Shown: positions 153 through 30,991 of the stretch, in pieces
How positions within the stretch are numbered: the stretch's first letter is position 1
Layout: the number at the start of each line of letters is the position of its first letter
Notes under the pieces: model-generated
The model's database searches: none
What the model saw: only the letters and a program-made list of their open reading frames with translations
Told to the model about the DNA's origin: nothing
Made by a program: the position numbers and the translations under genes
Source: Candidatus Latescibacterota bacterium
Lineage (GTDB): Bacteria; Latescibacterota; UBA2968
NCBI GenBank assembly: GCA_022823725.1
Contig: JAJEHL010000026.1
Location: 124,001 to 188,000, forward strand
Length of the DNA stretch: 64,000 bases
Reading direction: 5' to 3'

Positions 153-2538
153 AAAAAAAACCCCTTCTACACTCACCAACTTCCTATCCCGTCCATGGGT
201 ACCCATTGTATTCTTCGCCCTGCTCACAGCCGGCTACTTCTATCACCTCCTCATCACGGGCGATGTGATCTACGGCACCGACACCGGTGCAGAACTTCAC
301 AGAGGCAACGAACCCTTTGCGGAAGCCCTGAAAAAATTACCACCCAAAAACTGGAGCCGATTCATGGGCGGTACCCCGGAATCGTCCGCCCTGCGATCCC
401 AATACTACCCCCTCGTCGTCATCGACCTCTTCACCAGCGAACACCGCTATTTTGGCTGGCGTTACATCTTCGCCATGTTCACAGCAGGCTACTTCATGTA
501 CCTCTGCGCACGCAGCTTTGGCCTCCACCCCCTCGCAGCCCTCATCGCAGGTGCGGCCTACGCCTCTGCACCCGCATTCCTCTCCTTCACGCATGCCGGG
601 CACTATGCAAAAATGACCGTCATCGGCCTCTTCCCCCTCATGTACTGGGCACTCAACCGCGGCATGGACACGCGACGCATCATCTACTTTTTTATCCTCG
701 GCGGCACCGTCGGCATCGCCATCTACAGCCCGCACCTCCAGATGGCTTACTTTGCCCTCTGGGCACTGGGCCTGCTCTTTCTCTACAAACTCTTACGGGG
801 TCTGTTCCACACCCGAAACACAAAAACCGCCCTCTACCAAACCCTCCTATCGGCAGGCGCGATCTGCCTGGGCCTCGCCATAGGTGCAGAAGGCGTCATC
901 CCCCAATACTGGAACACACAAACATCTTCAAAACGCGCCGCCACCGAACAAACATCCGACGATGGCTACGAATTTGCCTCATCCTGGTCGCTTCACCCCG
1001 AAGAAATATTCGCCCTCGCCATACCCGAATTCGTCAGCTTTGACACAAACACAACACCCCATAAATACTGGGGACGCAACGCCTTCAAAATCAACTCGGA
1101 ATACGTCGGCATCGTCCCCTTCTTCTTCGCCATCTTTGCCCTCTCGCGCACGCGCAAAAAAGCCCACATCGCATTCCTCCTCGGCCTCTTCATACTCGCC
1201 GTCGCCTATTCACTCGGTCCCCACACCCCCCTGCACAAACTCCTGTACCACCTCGTCCCGGGCGTCAGCGTACTGCGCGCACCCGGCATGATCGCCTTCC
1301 TCTTCTCCTTTGCGCTATGCGCCCTCGCCGCGTACGGCCTCCACCGCCTCATCACCGACGACATCACCCCTGAAACCGCGAAAAAACTCGGCATCGCAGG
1401 CGGAATATGCACCGCAATCCTCCTCTTATTCGCCTTCGTCCCCTCCGCACTCTTATCCCTCTGGCAAAACATCGTCTGGACGGACATATCCGCCTGGCAA
1501 GAGATTATATGGCAAAATAGAGATACATCCTTCACCCGCCTCCAAATCGCCCAAAACAACCTCCCCCTCACAGGACAGGGCGCACTGCTCGCCGCACTCT
1601 TCGTCGGCACACTCACCGTCATCTCGTATCTCCGCGCACAAAACAAACTCAAAATCCACACCTTCTTCCTCATCCTCCTCACCATCATCCTCATCGACAC
1701 CTGGCGCATCGACAAAATGTTTCTCAACTACGCCAACCCCAACCGCGTTCTACCAGAAGAGCGCGTCAACGCCGACGCCGTTGCATTCCTCAAACGCGAC
1801 AACAGCCTCTTTCGCGTACTCGCCCTACCCGACCACAACCAGATGCCCCTGCCCGGCATAGACCTCGTAACCGGCTTTAACGACTTCGCCATCAGGCGTT
1901 ACGACCACATCCTCAAATCCGGAACCATCAACTTCTCAAATCCCGCGATCCTCAACCTCCTCAACACCAAATACATCGTCGTGCCGTCTGAACTAAACAT
2001 CCCCTATCTCCAAAAAATTGCCGGACGCCAGGGTCTGCACATCTACCGCAACCCCGGCGCACTACCGTGGTTTTACCTCGCACCCCAACACGAAATCGTC
2101 CCCGATGAAAATCAAATCCTCCAAAAACTGACCGACCGCAACGCCAACCCCATGCAAACAGCACTACTCGAAGAAGACCCCGGCATCTCCTCCACCCCCA
2201 ATGCCAGCGAAGCAGACAGCGTCGAACGCCTCGAATACAACGAACACCAGGGCCATCTCAAACTCAGAACAACAGCCCCCGGACCCCGCATTCTCGTCAT
2301 CTCGCAAAACCACCACCCCAACTGGACTGCCACCGTCAACGGCGAACCCAAACCCCTCATACGCGCCAACTACCTCTGGACCGCAGTCGCACTTGCACCC
2401 GGCGAACACATCGTCGAACTCACCTACCGGGACCCTATCGTAGCCACCACGCGCTGGATCACACTCGGTGGCGTTATCCTCCTCATCGCTGCAATCGCAC
2501 TGTGCATATACAATGAAAAAACCCACAACACCAACTGA
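130..2538 (+). CDS. YfhO-family multispanning membrane protein
   Basis: The 802-residue protein has a hydrophobic helix near residues 24-45, many further membrane segments to about residue 530, and a mostly soluble C-terminal part (about 540-770) followed by a last helix (about 775-795). The early loop with YGTD, the RFMGG region and the AGAAYA helix, and the late 'LLNTKYIVVP' segment, are typical of YfhO-type proteins, which resemble GT-C glycosyltransferases and are linked to glycosylating surface polymers. Its acceptor cannot be read from sequence. It overlaps the downstream flippase by 26 bases, so the two are almost certainly translated from one message. Family call firm; activity inferred. 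Confidence 0.85.
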   Translation: MPPRRSSEKKTPSTLTNFLSRPWVPIVFFALLTAGYFYHLLITGDVIYGTDTGAELHRGNEPFAEALKKLPPKNWSRFMGGTPESSALRSQYYPLVVIDLFTSEHRYFGWRYIFAMFTAGYFMYLCARSFGLHPLAALIAGAAYASAPAFLSFTHAGHYAKMTVIGLFPLMYWALNRGMDTRRIIYFFILGGTVGIAIYSPHLQMAYFALWALGLLFLYKLLRGLFHTRNTKTALYQTLLSAGAICLGLAIGAEGVIPQYWNTQTSSKRAATEQTSDDGYEFASSWSLHPEEIFALAIPEFVSFDTNTTPHKYWGRNAFKINSEYVGIVPFFFAIFALSRTRKKAHIAFLLGLFILAVAYSLGPHTPLHKLLYHLVPGVSVLRAPGMIAFLFSFALCALAAYGLHRLITDDITPETAKKLGIAGGICTAILLLFAFVPSALLSLWQNIVWTDISAWQEIIWQNRDTSFTRLQIAQNNLPLTGQGALLAALFVGTLTVISYLRAQNKLKIHTFFLILLTIILIDTWRIDKMFLNYANPNRVLPEERVNADAVAFLKRDNSLFRVLALPDHNQMPLPGIDLVTGFNDFAIRRYDHILKSGTINFSNPAILNLLNTKYIVVPSELNIPYLQKIAGRQGLHIYRNPGALPWFYLAPQHEIVPDENQILQKLTDRNANPMQTALLEEDPGISSTPNASEADSVERLEYNEHQGHLKLRTTAPGPRILVISQNHHPNWTATVNGEPKPLIRANYLWTAVALAPGEHIVELTYRDPIVATTRWITLGGVILLIAAIALCIYNEKTHNTN

Positions 2539-4042
2539 AGCATCCGCCATCCAGCGCATTGCCCGCGGCGCGATACAAACCTTCGGCAGCACCTACCCCG
2601 CGCGAATCATCAACTTCGCGGTACTCCTCCTGCTCTACCAGATCCTCGTCCCCGAAGACTTTGGCGCCATCACAACAGCCTATTCAATCCTCGCCCTCGT
2701 CATCGCCATCCGCGACCTCGGATTGCATTACGCCCTCTTGCACGAACACGACAACGTCCACGACCTCGCACCCACACACTTTGTACTCAGCGTCAGCCTG
2801 GGCAGCATCAGCACACTCCTCGCCCTGTGCATCGCCCTCTATTCCGAACACCTGTTTGAACTCACCCGCACATTCAACACCTACATCACAGACGCCGATA
2901 CAGAACAAACCTACCCCAAAGTCGCCATTGCCCTGGGCATACTGGGCGCATTCGACCTCCTCCGAACAGCCGCACTCACCGCCGAAACCCAGCTACAGCG
3001 CGACCTCGAATTTGGGCGCCTCGCCTTTGCACATGCAGGAGGAACCATCCTCGCAGCCCTCGTCGGCCTCGCCCTCGCCTACCTCGGATACGGCAAATGG
3101 GCACTTATCCTCGGATTCTTCCCATACAGCGTCACCTATATCCTCGTCTATTGCACCGTCGTCTGGCTCCGCCATCCCCCGCCCCTGAATCAGCTACACG
3201 CCTTCAACGCACAAGCCGCGCGACGCCTGATCCGCTACGGCTTATGGTTCTGGATCGGCGGCATACCCAAAATTTTCATCCAACACTACGACAAACTCAT
3301 CATCAGCCTGTTCTTCACCTTGAGCCTGCGCGGGATATACGACGCCGCACACAGCTTTGCACAGATACCCACTGGGGCCATCACCATGGTCATGGTACGC
3401 ATCACCGCCACAGTGTACGCACGCTACCAGAACAACCGCGACCAACTCTCCGCAGCATACCGCAGAACCTCGCGCCTCATCCTGCGCACCACAGTCCCCA
3501 TCTCCCTCGTGCTCGCGCTCGAAGCCAACCGATGGATACACATCTTCAAACCCGACTGGGCACCCGCAGCCCCGCTCCTCCAATGGCTCATCATCTACGC
3601 CCTCTGCCGCCCCCTGCTCGACGATGTACACGCCCTATTCTACAGCGCAGGCAGCCCCAAAAGCATTGCAAAATTCTCTGCGGCTCAAGCCCTCATCCTC
3701 CTCATCCTCGCCCCCTATCTCGCCCATCACCTGGACGCGATAGGCATCGCCATCAGCATGAACGCCATCGCCCTCGTCGGCCTCATCCTCGCACTCATCC
3801 TCGTACGCTCTTATGTCGATATCCCCATCGCCAAAACTTACGCCCCCCCGCTCATCGCCGCAGCCATCGGCGCGGGCATGCACTTTGCCCTTGCCGAATG
3901 GCTCAACACATTGCCAATCCCAATCGGCGTCCTCGCCGGCAGCGCAATCTTCACCACGGGTTATGGCTCGGGCCTCCTCATCGTTGAACGCAAAACAATA
4001 ATCGACGAAATCAAAACCGTCATCCGCGCGATCAGATCATGA
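2513..4042 (+). CDS. Wzx/MATE-type polysaccharide flippase
   Basis: About 509 residues starting MKKPTTPTEA, with roughly a dozen hydrophobic segments typical of the MOP (Wzx, RfbX, WzxC) exporter superfamily. Known members flip lipid-linked oligosaccharides across the inner membrane. I chose the ATG at 2513 because the 15 residues encoded upstream are read from inside the preceding gene and look unlike a protein N-terminus. Position after the YfhO protein and before epimerases and glycosyltransferases supports a role in surface-glycan export. The stop codon lies directly against an iterated AGGAT repeat. Confidence 0.85.
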   Translation: MKKPTTPTEASAIQRIARGAIQTFGSTYPARIINFAVLLLLYQILVPEDFGAITTAYSILALVIAIRDLGLHYALLHEHDNVHDLAPTHFVLSVSLGSISTLLALCIALYSEHLFELTRTFNTYITDADTEQTYPKVAIALGILGAFDLLRTAALTAETQLQRDLEFGRLAFAHAGGTILAALVGLALAYLGYGKWALILGFFPYSVTYILVYCTVVWLRHPPPLNQLHAFNAQAARRLIRYGLWFWIGGIPKIFIQHYDKLIISLFFTLSLRGIYDAAHSFAQIPTGAITMVMVRITATVYARYQNNRDQLSAAYRRTSRLILRTTVPISLVLALEANRWIHIFKPDWAPAAPLLQWLIIYALCRPLLDDVHALFYSAGSPKSIAKFSAAQALILLILAPYLAHHLDAIGIAISMNAIALVGLILALILVRSYVDIPIAKTYAPPLIAAAIGAGMHFALAEWLNTLPIPIGVLAGSAIFTTGYGSGLLIVERKTIIDEIKTVIRAIRS

Positions 4043-24725: not shown

Positions 24726-25337
24726 TCATTCTCCATTTGTTGCACGCCTCTCAATCTCCGCCCGATAATCTTCTGGCGTATCCAGATCCCGCAAAATCCC
24801 TTCATCATCTACCGGCACCTCCCTCGTATCTTGCGGGTGCCCCCGCATAACCGGCTTGAGACCCTCATCCCCAGCAAGCGCCAGAATCTCGTCTCGGTAA
24901 CGCGACAAATTTATCAGCACTGGATGCCCGCGCTTGCCACCCGATATGGGAATCACAATACCCCGATCGCCTTCGCGGTATGCCCGCACCACAGCCTGAA
25001 CAACGCGCAATTCAATCTGAGGCTGATCGCCAAGCGCGATAAGCACAGCATCTGCATCTGCAGGCAAATGGTGGAGACCGCAAAGCACACTGGAAAACAT
25101 CCCTTCGCGGTAGGCATCATTCACACAACACAGCACGGGCCGACCGCGCAAACTCTCGCGCACAGCATCTGCATCGTGCCCCAAAACCACCACAACACCG
25201 GCCAGATCAGCACCTGACAGCGTATCAACCACTGTTTGAAGAACCGTTCTATCGCCAAAAGGCAACAACTGTTTGGTTGACCCCATGCGCCGAGCCATAC
25301 CCGCGGCCAGCACAAGACCGTAAATTTGTTCGTTCAT
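24726..25337 (-). CDS. MocA/MobA-like nucleotidyltransferase
   Basis: 203 residues. LVLAAGMARRMGSTKQLLPF (about 8-27) is the NTP-binding signature of molybdenum-cofactor cytidylyl- or guanylyltransferases, and LGDQP (about 102-106) holds the metal-binding aspartate. In molybdenum hydroxylase systems MocA makes the cytosine dinucleotide form of the cofactor. No molybdoenzyme gene is visible here; its partner is the DapA-like gene 3 bases downstream, so a different NTP transfer is possible. Confidence 0.85.
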   Translation of the reverse strand: MNEQIYGLVLAAGMARRMGSTKQLLPFGDRTVLQTVVDTLSGADLAGVVVVLGHDADAVRESLRGRPVLCCVNDAYREGMFSSVLCGLHHLPADADAVLIALGDQPQIELRVVQAVVRAYREGDRGIVIPISGGKRGHPVLINLSRYRDEILALAGDEGLKPVMRGHPQDTREVPVDDEGILRDLDTPEDYRAEIERRATNGE

Positions 25338-25763: not shown

Positions 25764-28700
25764 ATGAACCCTAAAAATTTCATTACCCCTCCTGCTGCTG
25801 ACCGCCTCGTTCCATTTTGGATATGGAACGGCATAATAGAAGAAAACGAACTCGTTCGTCAAATCCGCGAAATGAGCGAAAAAGGACTTGGTGGATTTTG
25901 CCTATCAACAGGTCCTGGGCTAAAAACGCCTTATTTGTCTCACATCTGGTTCGATCGCGTAAAATTGGCACTCGAAACAGCAGAAGAATGTGGCCTCCAA
26001 GTCTGGGTCCACGACGAATACCGCTATCCAGGTGGTATTGGATCAACCCAAATCACCCTGGATCATCCCCAATTCATCGCACAGCAACTCACCTTTCGCG
26101 AAACCGTTGTACAGGGCGGGCAACAAGTTGACCTGACGTTGCCCTGGGCACCCGTGTTGCATACACTTGCTGTTCCCTTGCGAAGAGACCGCTGTCTATG
26201 GGAAGACAAACAAGATATCAGTGCTTATCTGGGAGTCAATCATCAACACCACGCACTGCGCGACAACAAAGATGTACCCGCCCCCCGTCCCCACACTTAT
26301 GTATCTTTTAATCCCACCCGCCGACTGTACTGGAAAGCACCTGCCGGACGCTGGCGCGTGCTCGTGTTTTTGCAAGAACCCTCGGCAAATAGCGACTGCC
26401 CTGGTTCACATCTCGATAGGTTCAATCCAGAATCTGTCCGCACCCTGCACCAGACTGTTCAGCAACCCTATATCGAGCGATTTTCCGCTTATCAGGGCAA
26501 AACTTTAAAGGGCATTTTAACCGCAGAAACGCATTTCCCCAACGATCGCCTGCCCTGGTCACCCGCATTGCCCGAATACTTCAAAACGCGCAATGGCTAC
26601 GATCTCCTCTCTTGCTTGCCTGCCCTCATAACCTACTTTGGTCCCAACACGAGCCGCATTCGCTACGATTATTTTCAAGCCCTGGGCGAACTGCAACAGC
26701 GACACGACAGCGCGCGCAGTGCCGACTGGTGCAAAGAGCATGACCTCAATTATGCGAGCGATATAACCCCGCTTCGCAATGCCCATCGCGCCTCTATATC
26801 CATACCTGGTACAAGCGGTGATCTCGGCGTTGAACGCGCCAAAGAATACACCGTATCATATCGCCACAGCCCGGAATTTGCAACAGCACTCGCCGCGCAA
26901 ACAAGCACTTCCCGCGTGCTCAATACCTGTTTCCAAAACGCGGGCTGGGCAACCACGCTGCAAGATATGAAAGCACACCTCGATACTCTCGGAACCCATG
27001 GAGCCAACTTCTTTGCCCCTCAGGCTCTCTACTACACACTCGACGGGTTGCGCAAACACGCCACATCTCTGTTCCACCAAAATCCCTACTGGGAACACTT
27101 CCACCTGCTATCTGACTACGCAGGGCGACTTGCCCATCTCTTGTGCCAGGGGCATCAAGTAGCCGATATTGCACTCCTCGACCCCGTCACCAGCTTGTGG
27201 GCACATCTCGCACACCCGCTTCACAACTGGTCTTATGTCGGCTATGATCCCGATGAAGAAACACTGACCAATCACCTCGTTGCCGACTGGGCCTGTATTG
27301 CCCGCGCCCTGTATCAGATGCAGCGGCCATTTCAAAGCCTTGACCCGGCCCTCCTCGCCCAGGCGAAAATCATCGACCGCCAATTGCAGATCGGCAAAAC
27401 GCGATATAAGGTCCTGATCATTCCCCCCATCACCAATCTGGAACGCGAAGCATTTGATAAGCTACGCGCATTTATCAATGCAGGTGGTCTCGTCATCGCC
27501 CTGGGATTATTGCCCATCGAGGATATTCAAGAGGGCACATCGGTCGTCGAGGGATTTTCGCGGTTGACCGACATGGACTCCGGGCGAATGATCCGCGATT
27601 ATATCGGCCACGAATCGGGCGTCCACTTGCTGAGTCGAGACAACTTCATGTTTATCCGCACGGGGGGTACTGTAGAAAAAAATCAGGCAACCTCCATGCT
27701 GGAACGCCTGCTCGACGAAATACTGCCTCGGCGAGTACACATCATGTCAGACGGAAAAAGCGCCGACACAATACAATATCACCACCGAACAGATGAAAAG
27801 CATCGCATATTCTTTTTTGCCAATCGGGGAAATTCGCCCGTTACAACACAAATTTTTATACCCGCCTCCGACGGACATATAGAAAAATGGGATTTAGAAA
27901 CGGGCAAACGCACACCACTTGTGGTCGAACCTGCCGGAGAAATGAGTCGCATTAACCTCTCCTTTGATCGGCTGCAATCACATATGATCGTAACCTCTCC
28001 GGGCCACCCCAAAAAAGAAAAAGAAGAGCCTCTGATTGAAACGCTCAAACTCAATTTAACAGGTCACTGGAAAGTTGATCCAGAAGACGATAATGCCTTG
28101 CGCCTGGACAAATTCAAAACGAAATTCGACCCGTCTAACACGGGCGTACACCAGGGCTGGCATCAACCAGCCTATAGCGACAGCAGATGGCCCGAAACGC
28201 GCCCGCAATTTTTTGACAATCCAGAAGAAAAAACGATTTGTTGGTACCGAACAACCTTTGTCTCGGACATCGTCCCCAACAAACTATCTCTGGTCATGGA
28301 TCGAAGTGCCATTCAAGGAGAGCACCAGATCTACATCAACGGTTCCAAATTGCCGAGCAATGCTTTTCGCCCCACCTTCCGGTTCGATCACGCCAATGCC
28401 ACCTGCTCCATAGGACAACACATAAACAAAGGCAAAAATGTGATTGCTATCCGCGTGGAAGTCAACAATCCGGGCGATGGCCTCGCCGATGCCATGTATC
28501 TCTTTGGACGTTTTCAGCTCAAATCCTGGCGAAACATCTATCCCAGGCTCACACCCTCTCAAGATAGCGGTCCAGTTTTTGACTTCAACGCGCAGGGGCT
28601 GCCCTTCTATGCTGGCACGGTGTCATATACCCGAGACATCGATATCAAAACCCTGCCCGCGACCGCGCGTTTCAAAATTGACCTCGAACACACTGTAAAA

Positions 28701-28907
28701 AACCTCGCCGACATCGTCGAAATAATCATCAACGGCCAATCTATGGGTGTGCGCGCCTGGGCACCTTATTGCTGGACTGGCAAAACAGCTTATCTCAAAC
28801 AAGGCAAAAATCGCGTTGTCTTCCGCGTCACCAATACACTCGAAAAATTGCTCACTGGCGCGGTATATCAGCCAAAAACGCGGAAATTGATTCCAGTTGA
28901 GATCTAA
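25764..28907 (+). CDS. GH106-like glycoside hydrolase (alpha-L-rhamnosidase type)
   Basis: 1047 residues, within the GH106 size range. The N-terminal region has VPFWIWNGIIEENELVRQI and WVHDEYRYPGGIGS (about 84-97), typical of the catalytic barrel of GH106 rhamnosidases. A GH2-like jelly-roll sugar-binding module lies near 770-920 and a further beta domain to the end. There is no signal peptide, so it may act on imported oligosaccharides. It starts one base after the zinc-ribbon gene. The stop overlaps that of the convergent ligase gene by 3 bases. Confidence 0.82.
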   Translation: MNPKNFITPPAADRLVPFWIWNGIIEENELVRQIREMSEKGLGGFCLSTGPGLKTPYLSHIWFDRVKLALETAEECGLQVWVHDEYRYPGGIGSTQITLDHPQFIAQQLTFRETVVQGGQQVDLTLPWAPVLHTLAVPLRRDRCLWEDKQDISAYLGVNHQHHALRDNKDVPAPRPHTYVSFNPTRRLYWKAPAGRWRVLVFLQEPSANSDCPGSHLDRFNPESVRTLHQTVQQPYIERFSAYQGKTLKGILTAETHFPNDRLPWSPALPEYFKTRNGYDLLSCLPALITYFGPNTSRIRYDYFQALGELQQRHDSARSADWCKEHDLNYASDITPLRNAHRASISIPGTSGDLGVERAKEYTVSYRHSPEFATALAAQTSTSRVLNTCFQNAGWATTLQDMKAHLDTLGTHGANFFAPQALYYTLDGLRKHATSLFHQNPYWEHFHLLSDYAGRLAHLLCQGHQVADIALLDPVTSLWAHLAHPLHNWSYVGYDPDEETLTNHLVADWACIARALYQMQRPFQSLDPALLAQAKIIDRQLQIGKTRYKVLIIPPITNLEREAFDKLRAFINAGGLVIALGLLPIEDIQEGTSVVEGFSRLTDMDSGRMIRDYIGHESGVHLLSRDNFMFIRTGGTVEKNQATSMLERLLDEILPRRVHIMSDGKSADTIQYHHRTDEKHRIFFFANRGNSPVTTQIFIPASDGHIEKWDLETGKRTPLVVEPAGEMSRINLSFDRLQSHMIVTSPGHPKKEKEEPLIETLKLNLTGHWKVDPEDDNALRLDKFKTKFDPSNTGVHQGWHQPAYSDSRWPETRPQFFDNPEEKTICWYRTTFVSDIVPNKLSLVMDRSAIQGEHQIYINGSKLPSNAFRPTFRFDHANATCSIGQHINKGKNVIAIRVEVNNPGDGLADAMYLFGRFQLKSWRNIYPRLTPSQDSGPVFDFNAQGLPFYAGTVSYTRDIDIKTLPATARFKIDLEHTVKNLADIVEIIINGQSMGVRAWAPYCWTGKTAYLKQGKNRVVFRVTNTLEKLLTGAVYQPKTRKLIPVEI

Positions 28908-30991
28908 TCCTTACCTCCCAGCAAATATTTCTGCACCAGATACTGATAAATTTGTACAAAATCGCCTCGTCCATTATCCGCATTGTAAAAATGACAGATG
29001 GGATTGGGATTCACTTCCAAAACAAAAAGCCCATTGGAATTGGCGATCAAATCAATCGCGTAAAAACCCAAATTTAGCACCCGATTTAACGCCTGTGTCA
29101 AAGCGCGAAATTCCTCCAATAATCCCTCATCTACAACTGCAACTGCTCTGCCCCCTGCCCGATGCAGCGGATTGATATCCTCTCCCTCAATATCCGAATC
29201 ATTTTGCTTTTCATAAGCGAGCAACAACGCATCCTCACTGCCCACAATGCGATACTCAGGTCCCTCGACATAAGCCTGGATCAACAACACATTGTCAAAT
29301 CGGCTACTTTCCTCACACAACGCTTGCAAACGCGATTGCAAATCCTCTGCATTCGCCTCCAAATACACACCCTGTGCCATAGAGCCGTGACTGCGTTTCA
29401 GCACAACGGGAAAAGACATCTGTTGCACCACATCGCTCACAATATCTGCGACAGAAGCATGCGTCTTATACCGATCAAACCGCCGGTCAGATAGAGGATT
29501 GAACACCGTCATCGTCCTGGGCACTGTGATATTCGCTCGATCAAACAGCTCGTATTGATATCCCTTATCTTCCGCCAACTTGCCAGAAACATAATCGTTA
29601 AACGGATGTTTATTTCGCAAAAAATACAGCGGCTTTCCCTCTCTCTCCACCCGAATCACATTGCCATTTGCCGATACCGCCTCATACCCAACGCCCAACT
29701 GCCGACACGCGATTTCAAGACACCGCAAACTCTCTAAAATCACATCCTCCCCAAAACTATCCACCTCTCTGGGCAAATCCAACACCTCGCGTGCCAACGC
29801 CACCAGATGCAGCGATCCGAGTACACACGTAGGTCGCATAGATGCCTGCATCAAAAAATCCAATCCCCCAGTTTCACGCCGCACGCACAGCCCCTCTGGA
29901 ACCAGCGATCTCAAGCTCGCCACAGAAATAGCTTTGGGATGCGCCGACTGCGTCAAAACAACCTCGGCGGCCAGGGGCGCAATTGCATGCAAAATACCTC
30001 GTGCATCGTGTCCTTTATTAACACCCACCACAAAACGCCACTTATCCGATAGAACTTGCAAATCGCCCACCAGAGCGCGAGCCGCATCCGGATTGTGAGC
30101 ACCATCTAAAATCAAAGGAGGCGTCTTCCGAATCACCTCAAAACGCCCGGGCAACGAACCATTCAAAATCACTTCTCTCACCCGCTCATCCGACAAAACC
30201 ATCCCGCACCCATCTACAATATGACGCGCCACAGCCACTGATAGCGCGGCATTCTCCCGATACGCAACCGGCCGATCCGCAATATCGCCTATTTCCGTAT
30301 CGACCACATGCAACGCCGCACCCCGACGCACACACTCCTTTTCCAACAACTTCAAAACCTCGGGAACCTGCCCTGACCCCGTAAACAGCGGCCTTCCCGA
30401 ACGCGCAATATGTACCTTATCCGCCGCAATCTCACACAGCGTATCGCCCAACACATCCGTGTGATCCAGATGAACAGCCGTCAACACAGCAACTTTTGAA
30501 TCCCATGCATTGGTCGCGTCAAATTGCCCACCCAGCCCCACCTCAAAAACAGCCCAATCCACATTTGCCCGCGCAAAATGATGCGCCGCCAAAACCGAGA
30601 GTGCCTCAAACTTGCTAAACGCGCCCCAGCCCTCGCGCTCAAAATCGCGGCTCTTTTCGTAAAAATGCGCGACACCTTCGGCCCACACATCGCGCGCGAG
30701 CACCTCGCCATCAACACATATCCGCTCGCGCACCGTATGCAAATGCGGCGACGTATAAAGCCCCACGCGAAAACCCGCTGCCCGCAATAACTCCGCCAGC
30801 AAATAACTCACCGTACCTTTGCCATTTGTACCCCCCACAATAACAGAGTCAAACCGCGCCTGGGGATTATCCAGGCGGTGCAACAGCGCACGCACACGCG
30901 GCAAATAATTTTCCAGCGCACCCTCTATCGGCTCACCCGTTTCCCAATCGGGCAACGTATTGAGAAACCGATTGCTCCGAAAATAGTTCAT
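28904..30991 (-). CDS. Folylpolyglutamate synthase-like Mur ligase fused to an ATP-grasp domain
   Basis: 695 residues, far longer than FolC (about 420-450). Residues 1-408 are a Mur-ligase-family FolC-like unit: P-loop GGTNGKGT (53-60), TSPHLHTVRERI (80-91), FEVGLGGQFDATN and the C-terminal-domain motif LILDGAHNPDAA (293-304). Residues about 420-695 are an ATP-grasp domain: FPVVLKRSHGSMAQG (527-541) with the ATP-binding lysine, EGPEYRI, and LEVNPNPICHFYN (658-670) with metal ligands. Both active sites look intact. Cyanophycin synthetase joins the same two folds but in opposite order. It probably ligates amino acids twice, perhaps making a peptide-tailed cofactor; substrate unknown. It is divergent from the tail-anchored gene. 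Confidence 0.88.
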   Translation of the reverse strand: MNYFRSNRFLNTLPDWETGEPIEGALENYLPRVRALLHRLDNPQARFDSVIVGGTNGKGTVSYLLAELLRAAGFRVGLYTSPHLHTVRERICVDGEVLARDVWAEGVAHFYEKSRDFEREGWGAFSKFEALSVLAAHHFARANVDWAVFEVGLGGQFDATNAWDSKVAVLTAVHLDHTDVLGDTLCEIAADKVHIARSGRPLFTGSGQVPEVLKLLEKECVRRGAALHVVDTEIGDIADRPVAYRENAALSVAVARHIVDGCGMVLSDERVREVILNGSLPGRFEVIRKTPPLILDGAHNPDAARALVGDLQVLSDKWRFVVGVNKGHDARGILHAIAPLAAEVVLTQSAHPKAISVASLRSLVPEGLCVRRETGGLDFLMQASMRPTCVLGSLHLVALAREVLDLPREVDSFGEDVILESLRCLEIACRQLGVGYEAVSANGNVIRVEREGKPLYFLRNKHPFNDYVSGKLAEDKGYQYELFDRANITVPRTMTVFNPLSDRRFDRYKTHASVADIVSDVVQQMSFPVVLKRSHGSMAQGVYLEANAEDLQSRLQALCEESSRFDNVLLIQAYVEGPEYRIVGSEDALLLAYEKQNDSDIEGEDINPLHRAGGRAVAVVDEGLLEEFRALTQALNRVLNLGFYAIDLIANSNGLFVLEVNPNPICHFYNADNGRGDFVQIYQYLVQKYLLGGKD

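Follow-up and report, generated by a model that had tools for sequence, protein, structure and literature searches.

Location and structure of the fused gene

In the window, the whole analysed stretch of 64,000 nucleotides from a Latescibacterota genome, the minus strand carries an open reading frame without internal stop, the 695-residue product of which joins a FolC-type Mur ligase (residues 1-408) to an ATP-grasp domain (about residues 455-690), with AAAGGTAAGG directly 5' of its ATG start. The initial annotation had placed the gene, its motifs GAHNPDAA, LKRSHG and LEVNPNP and the order of its domains correctly, leaving out only the strand. The features of the gene are the following:

28904..30991, minus strand: whole fused gene, FolC followed by a RimK-like ATP-grasp module; open frame of 695 codons plus stop
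29768..30991, minus strand: FolC half (predicted dihydrofolate/folylpolyglutamate synthase), residues 1-408; from the TIGR01499 score and Foldseek matches to FolC/FPGS structures
30812..30835, minus strand: FolC P-loop GGTNGKGT, residues 53-60; read from the sequence, G54, G57, K58 and G59 invariant in 36 sequences
30080..30103, minus strand: FolC motif GAHNPDAA, residues 297-304; read from the sequence, D296-P301 invariant in 36 sequences
28907..29767, minus strand: C-terminal module, residues 409-695, made up of a short linker, a small N-terminal subdomain and the ATP-grasp domain; from PF08443, the structural model and RimK 5zct
29597..29617, minus strand: RNKHPFN, residues 459-465, counterpart of the RimK PLNE/PxN motif ahead of the shared DK; R459, N460 and H462-N465 invariant, aligned to E. 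coli RimK PLNESVAIARARDK
29384..29401, minus strand: LKRSHG, residues 531-536, including the predicted ATP-contacting Lys532; K532 invariant, matching the lysine of RimK and of DdlB in the alignment
29150..29173, minus strand: NPLHRAGG, residues 607-614, counterpart of RimK SNLHRGG; N607-H610 and G614 invariant, aligned with RimK NLHRGG, missing from DdlB
29000..29020, minus strand: LEVNPNP, residues 658-664, with predicted metal-binding Glu659 and Asn661 (together with Asp647); D647, E659 and N661 invariant, aligned to RimK MEVN and DdlB LEAN

An AlphaFold2 model of the full 695-residue protein shows two well-formed domains (mean pLDDT 85.2), with low confidence at residues 537-540, a loop past Lys532. 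That the fusion is genuine is confirmed: 35 aligned homologues, 50-95% identical, share both domains and their order, which excludes chance and assembly error, and the joining of two separate genes by the assembly, named beforehand as the alternative to be feared, is ruled out by the same fusion in 42 genomes. We rate the fusion as a new domain architecture built from known ligase types, with chemistry of a known kind.

The gene stands alone in the window, divergent from a neighbour without a Pfam match and convergent with a gene for a GH106-like α-L-rhamnosidase of 1047 amino acids (25764-28907, plus strand), the ends of the two genes overlapping by 4 bases. A MobA-like nucleotidyltransferase (24726-25337, minus strand; PF12804, 130.6 bits) is encoded at a distance of some 3.6 kb from the fused gene.

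The FolC half

The N-terminal half matches TIGR01499 (folC) over residues 30-403 with 269.9 bits against a cut-off of 162.65, covering model positions 1-399 of 400, and Foldseek retrieves FolC/FPGS structures for this domain. Its catalytic motifs, the P-loop, LDH and GAHNP, are invariant across 36 homologues and align with those of solved FolCs. In every test that could be run, this half behaved as a FolC.

The fused protein provides the only FolC match over the cut-off in a genome estimated to be 98% complete, in which folC and folP were each checked individually; folP, encoding dihydropteroate synthase, is present with 309.6 bits. The search for a separate folC, proposed with the first description of the gene, retrieved elsewhere in the genome only weak Mur-type matches on contig 31, which are taken for peptidoglycan ligases. 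Since folP is present and the fused FolC is the sole one, the established pathway predicts that the fused protein should be the cell's normal dihydrofolate/folylpolyglutamate synthase, making dihydrofolate and its glutamate tail.

The ATP-grasp half

The second half is matched over residues 519-667 by PF08443 (RimK) with 36 bits at a cut-off of 21, as are 35 of the 36 homologues at E <= 0.001, and K532, D647, E659 and N661 are invariant in all 36 sequences. Together with the conserved FolC motifs, this shows the catalytic residues of both sites to be intact, in keeping with the initial annotation, to which both halves looked active. Among the NCBIfam families the RimK family ranks first with 60.7 bits and LysX second with 39 bits; the RimK-family model TIGR00768 is nevertheless missed (60.7 versus 143.4 bits, the match beginning at model position 83), as is the MptN equivalog NF040720 (19.4 versus 350 bits). 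Profile comparison by hhalign gives E 2.8e-8 for E. coli RimK and 2.1e-7 for DdlB, a small difference. In an alignment of the ATP-grasp half with E. coli RimK, the genome's own RimK and DdlB, however, the fused half retains RimK features that DdlB is missing, namely PxN ahead of DK, the arginine in the DIR strand (here EYR) and NLHRGG (here NPLHRAGG). Modelled alone, the half reaches a mean pLDDT of 85.6, and its best PDB match by Foldseek is RimK (5zct), followed by cyanophycin synthetase, Ddl, GshF and ArgX; CphA, Ddl, ArgX and GshF match the fold nearly as well as RimK does.

By family cut-offs the second half is therefore classified as RimK-like, and not as a RimK, MptN or CphA, the score lying well under the RimK-family cut-off of 143.4 bits. 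A canonical RimK is encoded on contig 18 of the same genome (NF007764, 450.8 bits versus 331), which rules out the fused domain as a substitute RimK; with a true RimK encoded elsewhere, the fused domain need not be a ribosomal protein S6 ligase. The canonical RimK gene is followed directly by a gene that, judged by eye, resembles AstE/succinylglutamate desuccinylase (L094, 1498-3360).

Distribution, origin and conservation of the fusion

A scan of a large genome collection, conducted with patterns from the single protein, which distant relatives could escape, retrieved 13 relatives of 50-95% identity that cover the whole or almost the whole protein. Of 64 genomes of the phylum examined, 46 belong to families f1, f2 and f4, and 42 of these carry both halves, counting G048 with a stop inside the gene. 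Of the remaining four, G044 and G051 are apparent losses in which contig ends cut the gene, and no FolC whatsoever was found in G041 and G057. In families f3 and f5-f10, an ordinary FolC without the second domain is present where any FolC was found. No free-standing ATP-grasp module was found in the phylum. Elsewhere, the module gave weak generic matches only, up to 50 bits in 296 Nitrospirota genomes and up to 46 bits in a set of about 230 non-Latescibacterota genomes, compared with 417-495 bits for the fusions; it was not found on plasmids, and phages gave weak RimK-like matches only.

In a tree of the FolC half, all 20 sampled fused FolCs lie on one side of a fully supported branch, so that one fusion event suffices. 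Between close pairs, dN/dS is 0.14-0.29 for the FolC half and 0.08-0.21 for the ATP-grasp half. Column identity averages 66% in the second half, compared with 65% over the entire protein. Purifying selection thus acts on both halves of a fusion that is old and fixed in one lineage.

Two sets of records deserve comment. A second FolC-like copy on L060 (G019:C48, record 1690-3048) matches residues 1-446, after which the frame continues into unrelated sequence to give 960 amino acids; this open reading frame is probably an assembly chimera or a strain variant. The fusion-bearing records L006, L011 and L013 are labelled Gemmatimonadota, 'bacterium' or Gemmatimonadaceae, names which are probably wrong because the positions coincide with the phylum genomes G036, G062 and G063 of the GTDB set.

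Gene neighbourhood in related genomes

The surroundings of the fused gene differ between the families. In f2, thyA, folA and rimO lie on the opposite strand 2-5 kb from the fused gene. In f4, moaA is located directly upstream, with 0-36 bases between its end and the fused gene in 14 of the 14 loci examined (L009-L011, L013, L041, L050-L056, L058 and L059); moaA encodes the GTP 3',8-cyclase, with TIGR02666 matched in the single one tested. A Cys/Met PLP enzyme is encoded downstream in most f4 loci. No moaA adjoins the fused gene in the window, nor in f1 and f2 as sampled. The neighbouring genes are compatible with one-carbon and pterin metabolism, without specifying what the second half acts on.

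Proposed function and alternatives

The fusion, its conservation, the intact catalytic residues of both halves, the single FolC and the kinship with RimK-type ligases are established here. On these grounds we consider, with about even chances, that the protein is a bifunctional folate-tail enzyme, in which FolC would make the γ-linked glutamates and the ATP-grasp half would add a further amino acid, most likely an α-linked glutamate. The FolC half would form an acyl phosphate from ATP and add glutamate first to dihydropteroate and then via the γ-carboxylates, whereupon the ATP-grasp half would use ATP to activate a carboxylate left free on the glutamate tail, again as acyl phosphate, and couple another amino acid, most likely L-glutamate at the α-carboxylate, with a tail capped or extended by an α linkage as the outcome. 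We infer that both halves act on the same molecule, that glutamate is the amino acid and that the bond is α. Several observations argue for this reading: the sole FolC accompanies folP in an almost complete genome; the fusion arose once, is fixed in the lineage, and shows low dN/dS and invariant catalytic residues in both halves; family models, profile and fold all place RimK closest to the second half, which also keeps RimK motifs that DdlB lacks; thyA and folA are nearby in one family; and MptN, MyfA/MyfB and the α-linked folates of E. coli provide precedents. Against it stand the RimK-family score far under the cut-off, the lack of most of the RimK N-terminal domain, the nearly equal fold matches to CphA, Ddl, ArgX and GshF, enzymes of other specificities, and the unfused relatives in the phylum, which manage without a second domain. 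The initial annotation had suggested a folate-like cofactor with a mixed peptide tail, which comes close to this reading, although an ordinary folate appears likelier than a special cofactor and the second site would add glutamate via the other carboxylate, not necessarily a second amino acid.

The divergence of the second half from all named families would also accommodate a different amino acid, such as aspartate, glycine or alanine, leading to a mixed tail or cap, given that the substrates of similarly folded ATP-grasp ligases include Asp for CphA, Gly for GshF and D-Ala for Ddl. Characterised members of the RimK family, which is the nearest by sequence and fold, mostly add glutamate, however, and we regard a non-glutamate extension as a minority possibility of perhaps one chance in five. 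Rather unlikely, at about one in six, is that the second half serves another acceptor, be it a protein, a small metabolite or another pterin cofactor such as a molybdopterin precursor, with the fusion coupling only expression or location. The main support for such an acceptor is the moaA gene immediately upstream in f4, and RimK itself has a protein substrate; yet moaA is not found beside the gene in the window or in the sampled f1 and f2 loci, we know of no amino-acid ligation in molybdopterin synthesis, S6 is already served by the canonical RimK, and a shared substrate is the simplest explanation for a domain that is always fused to FolC.

Fused accessory domains often become regulatory, and the low-confidence loop after Lys532 (residues 537-540) might be read as a trace of an ex-ligase that merely regulates or stabilises FolC. 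The residues for ATP and metal binding and those of the motifs do not vary even at 50% identity, and the ATP-grasp half is conserved as strongly as FolC, which makes this improbable. Still more improbable is a polymer maker akin to cyanophycin synthetase, although that enzyme unites the same two ligase superfamilies. The Mur half is a FolC and not MurE-like, it is the genome's only one, TIGR02068 gives 44.8 bits versus a cut-off of 850, and the surroundings of the fused gene showed no peptide gene cluster; the storage or secondary peptide that had been considered as a product accordingly finds no support.

Folate tails are usually viewed as γ-glutamyl chains, α linkages having been reported for E. 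coli in the 1980s. If the bifunctional folate-tail reading is widened to a lineage-specific, chemically distinct folate with a mixed tail, in which FolC γ-glutamates would be followed by another linkage or amino acid introduced by the ATP-grasp domain, we hold it to be plausible at somewhat less than even chances; the fusion would then, to our knowledge, be the first gene with an assigned role in modifying the distal folate tail. In this Latescibacterota lineage the only enzyme for the folate glutamate tail is permanently joined to a second peptide-bond-forming domain, which suggests that the lineage completes the vitamin B9 tail with a second kind of linkage. The lineage-wide FolC/RimK-like fusion points to a second tail reaction, and the single protein offers a test of it.

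Comparison with known enzymes

No characterised enzyme with the same domain order was found in the papers and genomes searched, nor a report of FolC joined with RimK or ATP-grasp in a literature collection with few subscription papers. The N-terminal half agrees with ordinary FolC (TIGR01499; E. coli 1w78, T. maritima 1o5z) in its family score above the cut-off, its P-loop, GAHNP motif and fold; ordinary FolC, however, with about 420-450 amino acids, ends where the second domain starts, and the fused protein has about 285 extra residues. With the RimK-type α-L-glutamate ligases RimK, MptN, CofF and MyfB, the second half has the ATP-grasp fold, the invariant K, D, E and N and the PxN/DIR/NLHRGG motifs in common, but it is less than 25% identical, scores below the cut-offs, is shortened in its N-terminal part and is always fused to FolC.

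We know of no gene assigned to the α-linking folate activity of E. coli. This α-carboxyl-linked folylpolyglutamate activity is known from an enzyme preparation, and α linkages are reported in the distal tail of E. coli folates (Ferone et al. 1986, as cited in PMC1971073); E. coli FolC is unfused. Other cofactors undergo comparable steps: MptN adds an α-Glu to tetrahydromethanopterin and the polyglutamate chain of methylofuran requires the ATP-grasp enzymes MyfA and MyfB, the latter of which makes polyglutamate in vitro (PMC8141765).

The fusion represents a second case of the joining of Mur-type and ATP-grasp ligases, reversed relative to cyanophycin synthetase, as the initial annotation had recognized: in CphA, named in a survey of 3,398 Mur-family proteins as the member born from an ATP-grasp fusion (PMC11915815), the ATP-grasp domain stands ahead of the Mur ligase (PMC9427784, PMC11915815). 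The reversed order and the low TIGR02068 score rule out a cyanophycin-type identity; moreover, the Mur half belongs to another branch and another product is expected. CphA1 likewise holds an ATP-grasp and a Mur-type ligase in one chain that use different carboxylates, the former extending the chain at the backbone carboxylate and the latter working on that of the side chain (PMC9427784). By analogy, the parallel with a FolC that would use γ-carboxylates and an ATP-grasp half that may use an α-carboxylate appears close in logic.
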